This document shows, piece after piece, positions 57,708-62,233 of a DNA stretch of 64,000 bases (positions are counted from its first letter, which is position 1; each line of letters starts with the position of its first letter). The stretch is taken from assembly GCF_011927955.1 (NCBI RefSeq), contig NZ_JAATJN010000001.1, forward strand, positions 4,154,001-4,218,000. Reading direction: 5' to 3'. Source of the DNA: Brevibacterium marinum. Its GTDB lineage: Bacteria; Actinomycetota; Actinomycetes; Actinomycetales; Brevibacteriaceae. Under the pieces are notes generated by a model. It was given only the letters and a program-made list of their open reading frames with translations, was not told where the DNA came from and ran no database searches. The position numbers and the translations under genes were made by a program.

Positions 57708-58634
57708 TCAGTCGGTCTTCACATCCGAGGGCTGGATCGTGTACGGGTTGGTGCTCAGGGCTCCGAAGACCCCCTCCTCTGCGAGTTCCTTGAGCTGCGC
57801 CTCGTCCTTGACTCCGGTCGCCCAGACCTTGAGATCCGTGCCGGTCCACTTCGCCGCAGATTCCGCGTCCACGGCGATCATCGAGTACCCCATGGCGGCC
57901 AGCGACTCCTCGTCGGATGCGGTCGGGTCGCCGGTGTACATCGCGGCCACTCCGAATTTGGACGCCGCTTCGGCGACTTCGGCATTCGCGGTCCTCACGA
58001 TCGTCGAATCGGCGATGTCCGCCTCGGCGATCTTATCCAGCACTGGGCCCGCCACCTCTGGGGATTCGATCAGGGGCATGAGGACGGTGGCACCGGCCAT
58101 CTGGTCGACCATCTGATCCCAGGTGATGGGCTCGCCGGGCGCAGTGTCCTTGCGCGGGGGTTTGATGGTCTCGTCGAGGAACGAGTCACGATCCAGCGAC
58201 GACAGATCGTCCTCGAGCCCCATGTCCTCGGGCGCAGTCTTCGGGTCAGCCGCGATGATCGTGCCGTCGCCCAGCTTCGCCAGGGTCGGGGCCGGCAGGT
58301 AACCGAACTTCGTGTTCTCGGTGAAGGCACGTTCGGAGTTCGCCGGATAGACCTCGGATCCGCCGTCGAGGGCGGCGACCGTGGGCTGCTCGAGAGAGTC
58401 GATGGTCAGGTGGTTCTCCTCGCCGAAGAAGCTGAGGCCGAGCACGACGGCGAGGCCGATGACGACGACGAGACCGGCCCACAGTGGCGCGTTGAACTTC
58501 TTCGGCTCCGGGCGCTCGGGCACAGGAGCGCGTTCGACGTCGTGCGGCTGATCGGTCGGCTGACCGCTGGCGGCCTGAGCCCGGTTGACCTGGTCGCGCT
58601 CATTGCGACCGTACCGGCGCTTCTTCTTGCTCAA
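57708..58634 (-). CDS. Membrane-anchored protein with degenerate GDPD-like domain
   Basis: A 308-residue protein. A basic cytoplasmic start (SKKKRRYGRNERDQ) is followed by one TM helix (LWAGLVVVIGLAVVLGLSFF) and an outer domain with the outline of glycerophosphodiester phosphodiesterases: VYPANSERAFTENTKFGYLP resembles the P-E-N-T-x-x-A-F region, and KVWATGVKDEAQLKELAEEG the last strand-helix. The catalytic His-Arg and metal acidic residues are not recognisable, so it may be non-catalytic. Start is TTG 58634, overlapping the glycosyltransferase stop by 4 nt with AAGGACGG upstream. Confidence 0.75.
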   Translation of the reverse strand: MSKKKRRYGRNERDQVNRAQAASGQPTDQPHDVERAPVPERPEPKKFNAPLWAGLVVVIGLAVVLGLSFFGEENHLTIDSLEQPTVAALDGGSEVYPANSERAFTENTKFGYLPAPTLAKLGDGTIIAADPKTAPEDMGLEDDLSSLDRDSFLDETIKPPRKDTAPGEPITWDQMVDQMAGATVLMPLIESPEVAGPVLDKIAEADIADSTIVRTANAEVAEAASKFGVAAMYTGDPTASDEESLAAMGYSMIAVDAESAAKWTGTDLKVWATGVKDEAQLKELAEEGVFGALSTNPYTIQPSDVKTD

Positions 58635-59710
58635 CGGCTGCCGTCCTTCGTCGATCCGGCGCCGGTGACCAGGCCGCGCAGGAAGCCGGCACCCCAGCAC
58701 AGGTGCATGGTGGGCAGGATGAGCCCGAACCAGGCGCGTTCGCGTCGTCCGCAGTCCTCGGCCGCCGAGGCGGTCGCCAGGATCCCCGAGATGTAGCCCA
58801 AGCTGGGCACGTGGACCAGAGAGGTGAAGCGGCGCAGGAACTTCGGCCACGCCTTCGTCCGCCCCGTGATCTGCAGGAGGGCTTCGATGACGCTGGCGCC
58901 CATGCCGAGGACCAGCAGAGGGGGCGCGAAGTAGCGCAGCGAGTTGGCCGATCCGTAGCGGCGGATGAGTTCTGCGCGCCAGATGCCGGTGGCCCAGAAC
59001 TGCTGGCCGATCTTCGACCAGGAATCGCGTGGCCAGTAGGTGACTTCCATGTCCGGGTTGAACCAGATGCGGCCGCCGGAGGTGCGGATGCGCAGGTTGA
59101 GCTCCCAGTCCTGGCCGCGTTTGATGCCTTCATCGAAGCCGCCGAGGTGATCGAAGACCTCACGTCGATAGACGCCGAGGTAGGCCGACTCGGCCTCGCC
59201 CGCTTCGTCACCGGAATGATAGGCGGGACCGCCGAGGCCGACCGGTGACGTATAGGCCCGAGCGACGGCCTTCTGGAAGGAGGTTGTGCCGCGGGCGAGC
59301 ATGAGCCCACCGCAGTTGGCGGCCCCGGTCTCACGCAGGGTGTCGATGGCCTGACGTGTGTACTCGGGGTTGAGCCCGGAGTGTGCGTCGACGCGGATGA
59401 TGACCGGGTGTCGGGTCACGGCGATCGCGAGGTTGAGTCCGATCGGGGTCGCCGCATCGGGATTGTCGACGGTCTGGATGCGGGAGTCCTGTGCCGCCAT
59501 GTCCGCGATGATGGCGTTCGTGTCGTCGGTCGAAGGGCCGAGCGCGAGGACGACTTCCTTGTCCCCGTCGTAGTCCTGGGCCAGGATCGTGGTGATCGCT
59601 TTGGCGATGTGCTCGGCCTCGTTGAGGACCGGCATGATGAAGGAGACTCCGGGCTTATCAGCCAAAGGCGGCAGACCCTCCGGGGTCAGGATCTCAGGAT
59701 TTTTCGACAC
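58631..59710 (-). CDS. Glycosyltransferase family 2
   Basis: A 359-residue GT-A enzyme with C-terminal membrane segments. GVSFIMPVLNEAEHIAKAIT opens the nucleotide-sugar fold, VIIRVDAHSG carries the acidic motif, and KRGQDWELNLRIRTSGGRIW the ED-like base. Hydrophobic stretches from LRYFAPPLLVLGMGASVIEA onward anchor it. Similar to glycosyltransferases that build surface polysaccharide or glycolipid. GTG start at 59710 with GAAGG upstream. Coupled to the GDPD-like gene. Confidence 0.9.
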   Translation of the reverse strand: MSKNPEILTPEGLPPLADKPGVSFIMPVLNEAEHIAKAITTILAQDYDGDKEVVLALGPSTDDTNAIIADMAAQDSRIQTVDNPDAATPIGLNLAIAVTRHPVIIRVDAHSGLNPEYTRQAIDTLRETGAANCGGLMLARGTTSFQKAVARAYTSPVGLGGPAYHSGDEAGEAESAYLGVYRREVFDHLGGFDEGIKRGQDWELNLRIRTSGGRIWFNPDMEVTYWPRDSWSKIGQQFWATGIWRAELIRRYGSANSLRYFAPPLLVLGMGASVIEALLQITGRTKAWPKFLRRFTSLVHVPSLGYISGILATASAAEDCGRRERAWFGLILPTMHLCWGAGFLRGLVTGAGSTKDGSR

Positions 59711-59809
59711 GCCTTCAATCTTCCCACATGCCTGCCATCTCGGCCTGGAGGGAGTGTTCAGGAGCCAGCGAGCCGGTCAAGGCCCCTGAGCGACCTCCCC
59801 CATGGCGCA

Positions 59810-60031
59810 GTGGCAGATATCGACGATGCCCATGCCTCGCAACCAGAAGGCACAGACAAGCTGATGGTCGCCGTCCAGCTGTCAGGCGACGGATACGACA
59901 AGGGCTCATTCGCCGGTGTCGTCGTCGACCCGGACATCGGCAAGACATCCGATCAGGTCCAGGTGAAGGCAAACCAGTCGTCGGACGCCGAGGCTCAGGT
60001 GACCACCTGGGTGAATGGCGAGTCGCAGTGA
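59810..60031 (+). CDS. Small ORF, possible N-terminal part of a Cys-rich peptide precursor
   Basis: A 73-residue frame: it has protein-like composition (LMVAVQLSGDGYDKGSFAGV, DPDIGKTSDQVQVK, TTWVNGE) and good codon bias, so it is likely or was recently coding. The frame stays open upstream, but the only usable starts are GTG 59810 and ATG 59864, neither with a ribosome-binding site, so the 5' end may be lost. Its stop overlaps the GTG of the 40-residue ORF. Alternatively it is the remnant of one longer protein split by a frameshift. I know no firm family. Confidence 0.5.
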   Translation: MADIDDAHASQPEGTDKLMVAVQLSGDGYDKGSFAGVVVDPDIGKTSDQVQVKANQSSDAEAQVTTWVNGESQ

Positions 60032-60150
60032 TCATCATCAGCACCTGCGCGTCCGCGTGTGCGGTGACCGTCGGAGCCGGATGCGTGGCATGCGTAGCCG
60101 GTTTCACCGCGATCGGAGGAGCTAGTGTCGGAAGATGCCTGAGCACGTGA
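60028..60150 (+). CDS. 40-residue cysteine-rich hydrophobic peptide (bacteriocin/RiPP-like)
   Basis: The peptide starts MIIISTCASACAVTVGAGC and continues VACVAGFTAIGGASVGRC, with cysteines at 7, 11, 19, 22 and 37 in an Ala/Gly/Val background and no charged residue except Arg36. The spacing C-x2-C-x-A-G-F slightly recalls halocin C8-type peptides. GTG start overlaps the upstream stop (GTGA), the coupling used elsewhere in this window. A 64-residue two-helix membrane protein follows, a possible immunity protein. The antimicrobial role is a guess; it could also be the tail of a frameshifted protein. Confidence 0.5.
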   Translation: MIIISTCASACAVTVGAGCVACVAGFTAIGGASVGRCLST

Positions 60151-60217
60151 CTCATCATGGAACTATGATGGCCATAGCAACAACTCCACTTGAGACCACA
60201 AACCAACTGGAGGGACA

Positions 60218-60412
60218 ATGAGAATTCCGCTGAAAGCCAGATGGATCATCGCCCTGTTGTTTCTTGCGATCGCGTCGCAAGCGCTTGCATTCGCTCCGGG
60301 ACTGCATGATCTCACAGCAGTATTCTGGGGACTGTCTTTCGCCTTCATGGTCGGCGCGCTCGTCGTCGCGGTCATACGCTTCCGCGAAGAGCGGACGAAA
60401 TCGACCGAATAG
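60218..60412 (+). CDS. Small two-helix membrane protein
   Basis: A 64-residue protein with helices WIIALLFLAIASQALAF (about 9-26) and VFWGLSFAFMVGALVVAVI (about 35-53), then a charged tail RFREERTKSTE. GGAGGGAC precedes the ATG. It lies 67 bp after the Cys-rich peptide and before a strong terminator, so the small ORFs may form one transcript. Size and layout resemble bacteriocin immunity proteins, but small membrane proteins of this look have many roles. Confidence 0.75.
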   Translation: MRIPLKARWIIALLFLAIASQALAFAPGLHDLTAVFWGLSFAFMVGALVVAVIRFREERTKSTE

Positions 60413-60437
60413 CGACGATCGCGCTCTGAGCGATCAG

Positions 60438-60477
60438 AGGGGCCCGGCGCGCTGTGCATGCAACGCGCCGGGCCCCT
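60438..60477. terminator. Strong terminator hairpin
   Basis: Perfect 14-bp stem (AGGGGCCCGGCGCG/CGCGCCGGGCCCCT), 12-nt loop, downstream of the small membrane protein gene. No U-run. Confidence 0.8.
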
Positions 60478-60558
60478 CGACGTGGTGCACCCAAGGGCGC
60501 GGTGACGCCCCGAAGGCTTGTGCGCCGCCCCACACCCGGCGTACATTGGCAACATAGG

Positions 60559-60634: not shown

Positions 60635-62233
60635 ATGGACGCTCCGGGACTCGGCGGCCTGAATTGGGCCGTGATCATCATCTATCTGCTCGCGACACTG
60701 GGAATCGGAGTGTGGTTCACCCGCAAGGCGAGCACCGGAACCGAATCCTTCTTCAAGGCCAATGGCCGCATCCCCGCCTGGGCGGCAGGCTTCAGCATCT
60801 ACGCGACGACACTGTCCGCCATCACCTATATGTCCACGCCCGAGCAGGCCTTCCTCACTGACTGGTCCTATGCGGCCGGCAACATCGCCATCTTCGCGAT
60901 CGTCCCGCTGCTCGTGATCTTCTACATCCCCTTCTTCCGCAAGCTCGACGTCACCACCGCCTATGAATACCTCGAGGAGCGCTTCGGACCCACCATCCGC
61001 GTGCTCGGATCGGCCCTGTTCGTGCTCTTCCACATCGGCCGTGTCGCCATCGTGATCTACCTGCCCACACTGGCGATCAGCTCGGTCACCGACATCAGCC
61101 CCGTCCTGGTCGCCGCCGCGGTCGGCGTCCTCTCCGTCGTCTACACCTTCCTCGGCGGCATCGAAGGCGTCATCTGGTCGGATGTGGTCCAGGGCATCAT
61201 CCTCCTCGTCGGTGCCGCCGTGATCCTCGCCTTCGGCATCGCCGCCCTCGACGGAGGCCTGGTCACCGTGGCCGCGGACGCCGCGGCCGACGACAAGTTC
61301 ATCTCGGCCGACAACTGGAAGTTCGGCGGAGCGGCCGCGGCCATTCCGATCGTCTTCCTCGGCTCGGTATTCAACAACCTCCACCAGTACACCGCCAGCC
61401 AGGACGTGGTGCAGCGCTATCAGACGACCGATTCGCCGAAGTCCACCGTGCGGTCGCTGATCGTCAACGGAATACTCGCCCTGGTGACCATTCCTCTGTT
61501 CTACGGAATCGGCACGGTCCTCTACAGCTACTACCAGCACGCCGAGGCTCTCCCCGAGGGGTTCAACACCTCGGCGCTGGTGCCCTACTTCGCCGTCACC
61601 GCTCTTCCGGCCGGCATCTCCGGACTGCTGATCGCTGCGATCTTCGCCGCCGCGCAGTCGACGATCTCCTCGAGCCTGAACTCGATCTCGGCTTGCGTGA
61701 CCGTCGACATCCGCGACCGCTTCTTCCCCCACAAAGACGGCCAGGCACACACCGGAGTCGGCTTCTCCCGACTGGTCATCGTGATCGTCGGTGCCATTTC
61801 GGTTGCGGTCGCCCTGTACCTGTCCGTCACGGACCAAGCACAGACCTGGGACCTGTTCCTGTCCATCACCGGGCTGTTCGGAGTTCCGCTCGCAGGCGTC
61901 TTCGCACTCGGCATCTTCACCAGACGCGCCAACAGCGCAGGAGTCCTCGGCGGCCTCCTGCTCGGCGCCGCACTCGCCTGGTACGTCCAGGACGTGGCAG
62001 GGTTGACACCGTTCGCCGTATCGACTGTGGCATTCATCGGCGCCGTCATCTTCGGCTACGTGATCTCCCTGTTCACCGGTTCCCGGAACCTGGGCGACCA
62101 CGACGTGACCGCCCTGACGATCTACGGCAGACGAGCGACGTACACCCGTCGCACCTCATCCTCTCCCTCCTTGGCAGCAACCGCCTCGGCAGGGGACAGC
62201 AACAACACCGAGCAAGGACAGATCAATGAGTGA
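60635..62233 (+). CDS. Sodium:solute symporter (SSS family), sialic-acid-type
   Basis: A 532-residue symporter with about 13 helices (first LNWAVIIIYLLATLGIGVWF). SSS family landmarks are AGFSIYATTLSAITYMSTP, and AAIFAAAQSTISSSLNSISA in TM8 which holds the Na2-site serines. The C-terminal tail is hydrophilic (Ser/Thr/Gly). Next to a NanA-type lyase and ROK kinase it most likely imports sialic acid. ATG 60635 with AGGAGGGAG upstream. First gene of the operon. Confidence 0.9.
   Translation: MDAPGLGGLNWAVIIIYLLATLGIGVWFTRKASTGTESFFKANGRIPAWAAGFSIYATTLSAITYMSTPEQAFLTDWSYAAGNIAIFAIVPLLVIFYIPFFRKLDVTTAYEYLEERFGPTIRVLGSALFVLFHIGRVAIVIYLPTLAISSVTDISPVLVAAAVGVLSVVYTFLGGIEGVIWSDVVQGIILLVGAAVILAFGIAALDGGLVTVAADAAADDKFISADNWKFGGAAAAIPIVFLGSVFNNLHQYTASQDVVQRYQTTDSPKSTVRSLIVNGILALVTIPLFYGIGTVLYSYYQHAEALPEGFNTSALVPYFAVTALPAGISGLLIAAIFAAAQSTISSSLNSISACVTVDIRDRFFPHKDGQAHTGVGFSRLVIVIVGAISVAVALYLSVTDQAQTWDLFLSITGLFGVPLAGVFALGIFTRRANSAGVLGGLLLGAALAWYVQDVAGLTPFAVSTVAFIGAVIFGYVISLFTGSRNLGDHDVTALTIYGRRATYTRRTSSSPSLAATASAGDSNNTEQGQINE

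Follow-up and report, generated by a model that had tools for sequence, protein, structure and literature searches.

Halocin C8 is produced from a single precursor, ProC8, which is exported by the Tat pathway and whose N-terminal part, HalI, confers immunity (PMC11509114). Alicyclobacillin 24 (Ali24), grouped with geobacillin 26 in class III (model NF035925), is a plasmid-borne secreted bacteriocin of narrow spectrum, which kills relatives through membrane damage (PMC13176240). On colicin and microcin plasmids, orphan immunity genes exist beside heavily truncated toxin genes or without any toxin gene (PMC12546727). In the genus Brevibacterium, the known accessory antibacterial genes (linocin M18, lactococcin 972-like, lanthipeptide, and LAP clusters) belong to families other than the one described here, and the available parts of two surveys of such clusters (PMC5719810, PMC10588199) do not mention the present family.

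The window analyzed here is a stretch of 64,000 nucleotides (positions 4154001-4218000) from the complete, single-contig genome (4.22 Mb) of Brevibacterium marinum. On sequence comparison it is likely to contain what is left of a locus for a cysteine-rich bacteriocin secreted by the Sec pathway, originally arranged as glycosyltransferase-P1-P2-two-TM immunity gene, that was recently killed while its immunity gene survived. P1 and P2 are paralogous precursors that are found intact in other genomes of the genus.

Comparison with known bacteriocins

The intact precursors resemble ProC8 and the TIGR04450 proteins (putative immunity/bacteriocin fusions) in that they are of similar size, secreted, and made of a soluble N-terminal part and a hydrophobic Cys-rich core. 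P1, P2, and a relative in Streptomyces have sub-threshold, colinear matches to the halocin C8 and TIGR04450 models. Compared with ProC8, however, the core has six cysteines, the signal lacks a clear twin-arginine motif on inspection whereas ProC8 uses Tat, and the immunity candidate is a separate two-TM gene and not an N-terminal part such as HalI (PMC11509114). Geobacillin 26 and Ali24 are alike in being about 240 aa long and Sec-secreted and in having a C-terminal hydrophobic helix, but Ali24 has two cysteines and the six-Cys core is absent there. The orphan immunity genes of colicin and microcin plasmids belong to other toxin and immunity families, while the case described here is chromosomal, in Brevibacterium, and putative in its immunity function.

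The halocin C8-type likeness noted in a preliminary description of this DNA is confirmed for the layout but not for model membership. The curated cut-offs (NCBIfam) are 200 bits for NF040679, 27 bits for TIGR04450, and 40 bits for NF035925. The halocin C8 model NF040679 gives 10.3 bits (E=0.39) with P1 of one Brevibacterium genome, G027, and no match with its P2. TIGR04450 (Gpos_C8_like) gives 12.5 bits with the same P2, 13.2 bits with the Streptomyces relative, and none in B. marinum. The geobacillin-26 model NF035925 gives 18.9 bits (E=0.001) with a second core in B. marinum itself (locus L013) and no match with the others. Membership in any of the three groups is rejected, as every score lies below the curated cut-off. 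When the family profile (A3) is compared with plasmid-encoded Ali24 by hmmsearch and hhalign, the result is no better than with shuffled sequence. By analogy the present family may work like the halocin C8 and geobacillin-26 groups, yet it falls outside their models.

The arrangement of two different precursors in tandem with one membrane immunity ORF is also found in the two-peptide bacteriocins of class IIb. Class IIb bacteriocins have a double-glycine leader and an ABC exporter, whereas P1 and P2 have a Sec signal and a long pro-part and other loci of the family carry a single precursor. That P1 and P2 with their one small membrane gene form a two-component bacteriocin is a guess.

Organization of the locus

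The features of the locus are as follows.

58631..59710, minus strand: family 2 glycosyltransferase, the left syntenic anchor (Pfam PF00535, E=1e-16; 91.6% identical to the neighbour of the intact genes in G027)
59733..59785, no strand: 5' deletion junction, about 50 bp unmatched to either intact locus (blastn/mafft against the G027 and G025 loci)
59786..60028, plus strand: P2 pro-part remnant, codons 65-145, containing the 73-aa frame from the GTG at 59810 (72.8% identity to G025 P2 residues 65-145)
60022..60031, plus strand: 121-bp deletion scar, lying at a short repeat (G027 and G025 alignment; overlapping blastn pieces)
60022..60150, plus strand: P2 core remnant, codons 184-225 and stop, hydrophobic, with five of the six original cysteines, containing the 40-aa frame (88% identity to G025 P2 residues 184-225)
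60218..60412, plus strand: intact 64-aa two-TM protein, candidate immunity factor, with ribosome-binding site and start CTGGAGGGACA-ATG (downstream ORFs of G027 and G025; third-position bias; helical hairpin model)
60437..60478, plus strand: GC-rich hairpin 3' of the candidate immunity ORF, with no T tract (RNA fold -50.7 kcal/mol, z -5.04)
60635..62233, plus strand: sodium:solute symporter belonging to the sialic acid (nan/nag) cluster, which flanks the bacteriocin locus on the right and lies outside it (Pfam PF00474, E=7e-37; cluster order)

The 73-codon open frame (59810-60031, plus strand) starts with GTG. Its stop overlaps, as GTGA, the GTG start of a 40-codon open frame (60028-60150, plus strand; VIIISTCASACAVTVGAGCVACVAGFTAIGGASVGRCLST), which has cysteines at positions 7, 11, 19, 22, and 37, and a 64-codon frame follows at 60218-60412 (plus strand). 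The lengths, the GTGA overlap, and the cysteine positions of the two overlapping frames agree with the preliminary description. Beyond it, homology starts at 59786, 5' of the GTG at 59810, the gene lacks its 5' part and the first cysteine of its six, and the paralogue upstream of it is gone. Since the left glycosyltransferase and the right nan/nag region are common to the window and G027, the window locus is the same locus as in G027.

The two frames are pieces of one precursor gene

With both window frames joined as the query, relatives were sought among genomes of the genus. Two genomes, G027 and G025 (Brevibacterium sp. CCUG 69071), hold both pieces within one ORF, with E = 3e-34 and 2e-13 for the two frames against the intact homologue of G027 and 1e-28 and 8e-14 against that of G025. 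The intact P2 has 225 aa in each (L011 5633-6310 in G027; L053 8001-8678, from an ATG, in G025). In both loci the paralogue P1 (242 aa in G027) lies 5' of P2 and a two-TM ORF lies 3' of it. P2 begins with a hydrophobic signal region, continues with a pro-part that is acidic and rich in strands, and ends in a hydrophobic domain that contains six cysteines (C174, 192, 196, 204, 207, and 222), and the window pieces align to residues 65-145 and 184-225. By this alignment the two window frames are pieces of one precursor gene, and two genes are ruled out. The earlier suggestion that they are the pro-part and the Cys-rich core of one precursor is borne out by these single-ORF homologues, which are full-length and have both parts, the outcome that the description itself named as support.

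Few genomes of the genus have precursors or cores of the P1/P2 type, and the precursor family is present in two of the 396 genomes of a sample of the phylum. Neither Pfam nor PADLOC gives anything at cut-off for the precursor or the candidate immunity protein, and a sequence search against solved structures finds none matching. In a structure model of P2 (mean pLDDT 65.9), the pro-part is predicted, at low confidence, as one helix on an antiparallel sheet. Foldseek with this model gives no match under 0.001. The best match by VIA-align (Z 5.7), in which residues 50-127 align with a designed protein of the cystatin fold, is too weak for use.

How the gene was broken

Between the two window pieces, 121 bp are missing at the repeat TCGCA(G/C)TG, copies of which flank both sides in the relatives. 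The loss takes P2 codons from about 146 to 183 (38 codons), including Cys174, the first of the six cysteines. As 121 is not a multiple of three, the frame shifts, and the TGA and the GTGA overlap arise. Of the two explanations offered earlier for the overlap, a split by a recent frameshift agrees with this deletion relative to the intact P2 of G027 and G025. Coupled genes are not supported, as the overlap is, by the alignment with both genomes, a deletion scar. On the 5' side, where the G027 locus has about 1.3 kb comprising all of P1 and the start, the signal region, and the first ~64 codons of P2, the window has about 50 bp without a match. An assembly error is unlikely, as the genome is complete in a single contig and the deletions are two and separate, with a repeat at one of them.

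Because the signal peptide, the P2 start, and P1 are deleted and the frame is shifted, no secreted product is possible from the window locus. What remains is a pseudogene whose partner gene survives, and the live bacteriocin locus envisaged earlier must be given up, with P1, the signal peptide, ~64 codons, and a further 38 codons inside the gene all lost.

As dN/dS estimates (NG86/YN00) saturate, differences were counted by codon position. Against G027, the pro-part has 4/5/36 differences at the first, second, and third positions (36 of 45 at the third) and the core has 3/4/22 (22 of 29 at the third). The two intact genes differ from each other with a similar skew. The strong third-position bias of both pieces implies that coding constraint acted on precisely these frames during almost the whole divergence, and thus that the deletions are recent.

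The small two-TM protein

The 64-aa protein has two hydrophobic segments (10-26 and 37-53) and is modeled as a helix-turn-helix hairpin (H5-24 and H30-63, mean pLDDT 75.8), in agreement with its earlier description as a two-helix membrane protein. The ORFs directly 3' of P2 in G027 and G025 are 75% and 67% identical to it. Its codon-position differences from G027 are 12/6/24 (p = 0.0025); the ORF is constrained but evolves faster.

Of the 57 genomes in the genus, about 24 have homologues of the two-TM protein, and in most cases a precursor is absent from the nearest 1.5 kb. In G036, for example, the small two-TM gene adjoins the nan/nag cluster and the precursor is absent there. Within the genus, every precursor or core locus found has a two-TM ORF directly downstream. 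The two-TM protein is probably a self-protection (immunity) factor. Of the earlier proposal that the small membrane protein gives immunity, the standing partnership downstream of such precursors is confirmed, and we infer the protection itself.

Precursor and two-TM pairs in other loci

The pairing recurs outside the window, in intact and in broken form. Four of the loci concerned are the following.

L056 4043-5015 (B. marinum C1 ~2284042-2285014), minus strand: P3 and a 62-aa ORF
L013 5515-6424 (B. marinum C1 ~1415014-1415923): tRNA-Thr, then a 5'-truncated P1-type core ORF, 98 aa, open, with six cysteines, and its own two-TM ORF
L077 1653-2132, minus strand: core fragment of G642, outside the genus, directly before a two-TM ORF
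L075 ~2501-2900: truncated, internally deleted core on Bacillus velezensis pDMB05-1, beside an intact two-TM ORF

P3 is a third type of precursor in the B. marinum genome. It is intact (256 aa), has a signal peptide and a Cys-rich C-terminus, and is followed by a 62-aa two-TM ORF; an intact orthologue of the pair exists in G020. B. marinum may still produce a related bacteriocin from P3. Intact precursors with a two-TM ORF are also found in G316, from a different family, and on the plasmids plaBV1 of B. velezensis and pDMT04 of Terribacillus. The paired two-TM ORFs have 54-69 aa. A signal peptide (judged solely from the N-terminal hydrophobic stretch) and a co-located small membrane protein are found together in G025, G027, the P3 locus of B. 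marinum (G000), G020, G316, plaBV1, and pDMT04. In the Streptomyces relative the two-TM ORF lies just upstream of the precursor, and in the relative on B. licheniformis pFL5 a larger ORF with four segments lies downstream. When the two-TM profile alone was used for searching, a match was found in G642, which belongs to another family of the order, and its upstream neighbour is a Cys-core fragment. This is an independent test of the association of precursor and two-TM ORF, which the association passed.

Genes for thioredoxin and DsbB (L060 687-1534) adjoin the Cys-rich precursor gene of pFL5, which suggests disulfide formation as maturation. The preliminary description considered a RiPP locus. 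Among the genes adjacent to the intact loci (a glycosyltransferase, nan/nag genes, an SNF2 helicase identified by Pfam, and a 122-aa protein with no Pfam match), there is no modification enzyme or exporter. Together with the Sec-type signal peptide and the pFL5 neighbours pointing to disulfides, this leaves a RiPP cluster unsupported by the neighbouring genes, though a distant enzyme may exist.

Probable repeated loss of the toxin gene

In the window the putative toxin gene is broken, with two deletions in P2 and P1 gone, and the 64-aa ORF is whole. At least four other loci have a broken core adjoining an intact two-TM ORF. They include the L013 core, which lies ~270 bp past a tRNA-Thr, the loci of G642 and pDMB05-1, and a fossil core with a common stop codon in G027, G006, and G023. 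In the genus, the distribution looks like loss of the toxin with the immunity gene kept.

Selection may act on the surviving ORFs after the loss of the toxin; the counts differ among loci. The two-TM ORF of pDMB05-1 differs from that of plaBV1 in 7 of 54 residues, with codon-position counts of 7/0/11 (p = 0.006), and third-position bias is found in several pairs of a vertically kept orphan two-TM group with common flanks. At the fossil locus, which is older, the bias (5/3/7) is not significant. Note that the chance of a small ORF escaping every lesion is not negligible, and that the loss in the window is too recent to reveal later selection.

Alternative explanations

Many overlapping spurious frames of like size exist near the two frames, as would be expected if these were chance ORFs in GC-rich DNA that were never a gene. 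The E values of 3e-34 and 1e-28 to intact ORFs and the strong third-position bias in both pieces have already refuted this, and its probability is close to nil. The remnant might instead be functional in a new form, with the 73-aa and 40-aa frames coupled or joined by a -1 frameshift and acting inside the cell, for example with the core as a membrane-active toxin and the two-TM protein as antitoxin. Both frames are open, with strong third-position bias and little visible decay, and the genome keeps a second, 5'-truncated open core with six cysteines. Recent deletion, however, accounts equally well for the bias, there is no signal peptide and no visible ribosome-binding site 5' of the 73-aa frame, no slippery heptamer is seen at the junction on inspection, and exactly at the scar the gene has lost 38 codons together with one of its six conserved cysteines. 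We regard such a function as quite improbable.

Two further readings, both unlikely to about the same degree, concern the products. One takes the two-TM protein as a small membrane protein with a general role in the genus, found beside precursors by chance and not for immunity. Its homologues in ~24 of 57 genomes, often with no nearby precursor, and the vertical retention of some of them in common flanks with third-position bias would agree with this. Against it, none of the precursor or core loci found in the genus lacks a two-TM ORF directly downstream, the immunity profile alone recovered the core fragment in another family (G642), and two-TM ORFs of equally small size occupy the same position next to unrelated precursor types and in the relatives on Bacillus plasmids. 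The other takes the precursor as a secreted Cys-rich protein that is not antimicrobial (a signal, an adhesin, or a developmental factor), with an accessory membrane protein. The bacteriocin-model matches are all sub-threshold and a patchy distribution would suit other accessory traits too, but a gene that is rare, patchy, partly plasmid-borne, and often lost, that has divergent paralogues in tandem, and that comes with a small membrane partner of its own is typical of bacteriocins.

Proposed mechanism and implications

For the bacteriocin reading, the following mechanism is proposed. Each intact precursor (225-250 aa) would cross the membrane by means of its Sec signal peptide, and the pro-part would keep the hydrophobic C-terminal domain inert. 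The conserved cysteines, probably paired in disulfides, would hold the helical hydrophobic core, which, perhaps after proteolysis, would attack the membrane of related bacteria. The producer would be protected by the co-encoded two-TM protein. The signal regions, the conserved cysteines, the thioredoxin and DsbB genes of pFL5, and the membrane damage by the similarly laid-out Ali24 speak for this mechanism. In B. marinum, the large 5' deletion removed P1 together with the P2 start and signal peptide, and the 121-bp deletion took the junction of pro-part and core with one cysteine and shifted the frame, probably leaving the strain as an immune non-producer, to which the kept gene may be of benefit.

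A broader proposal, to which we give somewhat less than even weight, is that these loci represent an undescribed family of Sec-secreted bacteriocins with six disulfide-linked cysteines and a separate two-TM immunity protein, present in actinobacteria and bacilli and sometimes as two-component P1 and P2 pairs. In Brevibacterium the family would then be represented mostly by immune non-producers, in which toxins die repeatedly and independently and the two-TM gene, as a means of protection, is retained and spreads. Should the two-TM protein be an immunity factor, the genus offers many natural loci with a dead toxin and a living immunity gene for asking whether toxin loss or immunity gain comes into play. 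The secreted Cys-rich proteins form an uncatalogued group, probably of bacteriocins, in a genus that serves in the ripening of cheese, and relatives of the group exist on Bacillus plasmids. Two tiny ORFs that looked odd have here become a gene loss legible at the level of single bases, and the case cautions that pairs of small ORFs overlapping in GTGA can be deletion scars instead of coupled genes.

Minor observations

The strong terminator reported earlier after the two-TM ORF is a strong hairpin (-50.7 kcal/mol, z -5.0), but it has no T tract, and a terminator scan calls no terminator-like site. On Alicyclobacillus pDSM3922.1 (L074 25600-26203, minus strand), a small frame that lacks annotation and has two hydrophobic stretches comes after the Ali24 gene. 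This is a possible immunity gene, unmentioned in the available passages on Ali24. In G027, fragments of nanE and nagB (L011 4656-5079) lie between the intact nagB and the two-TM gene, and the nan cluster is eroded there.
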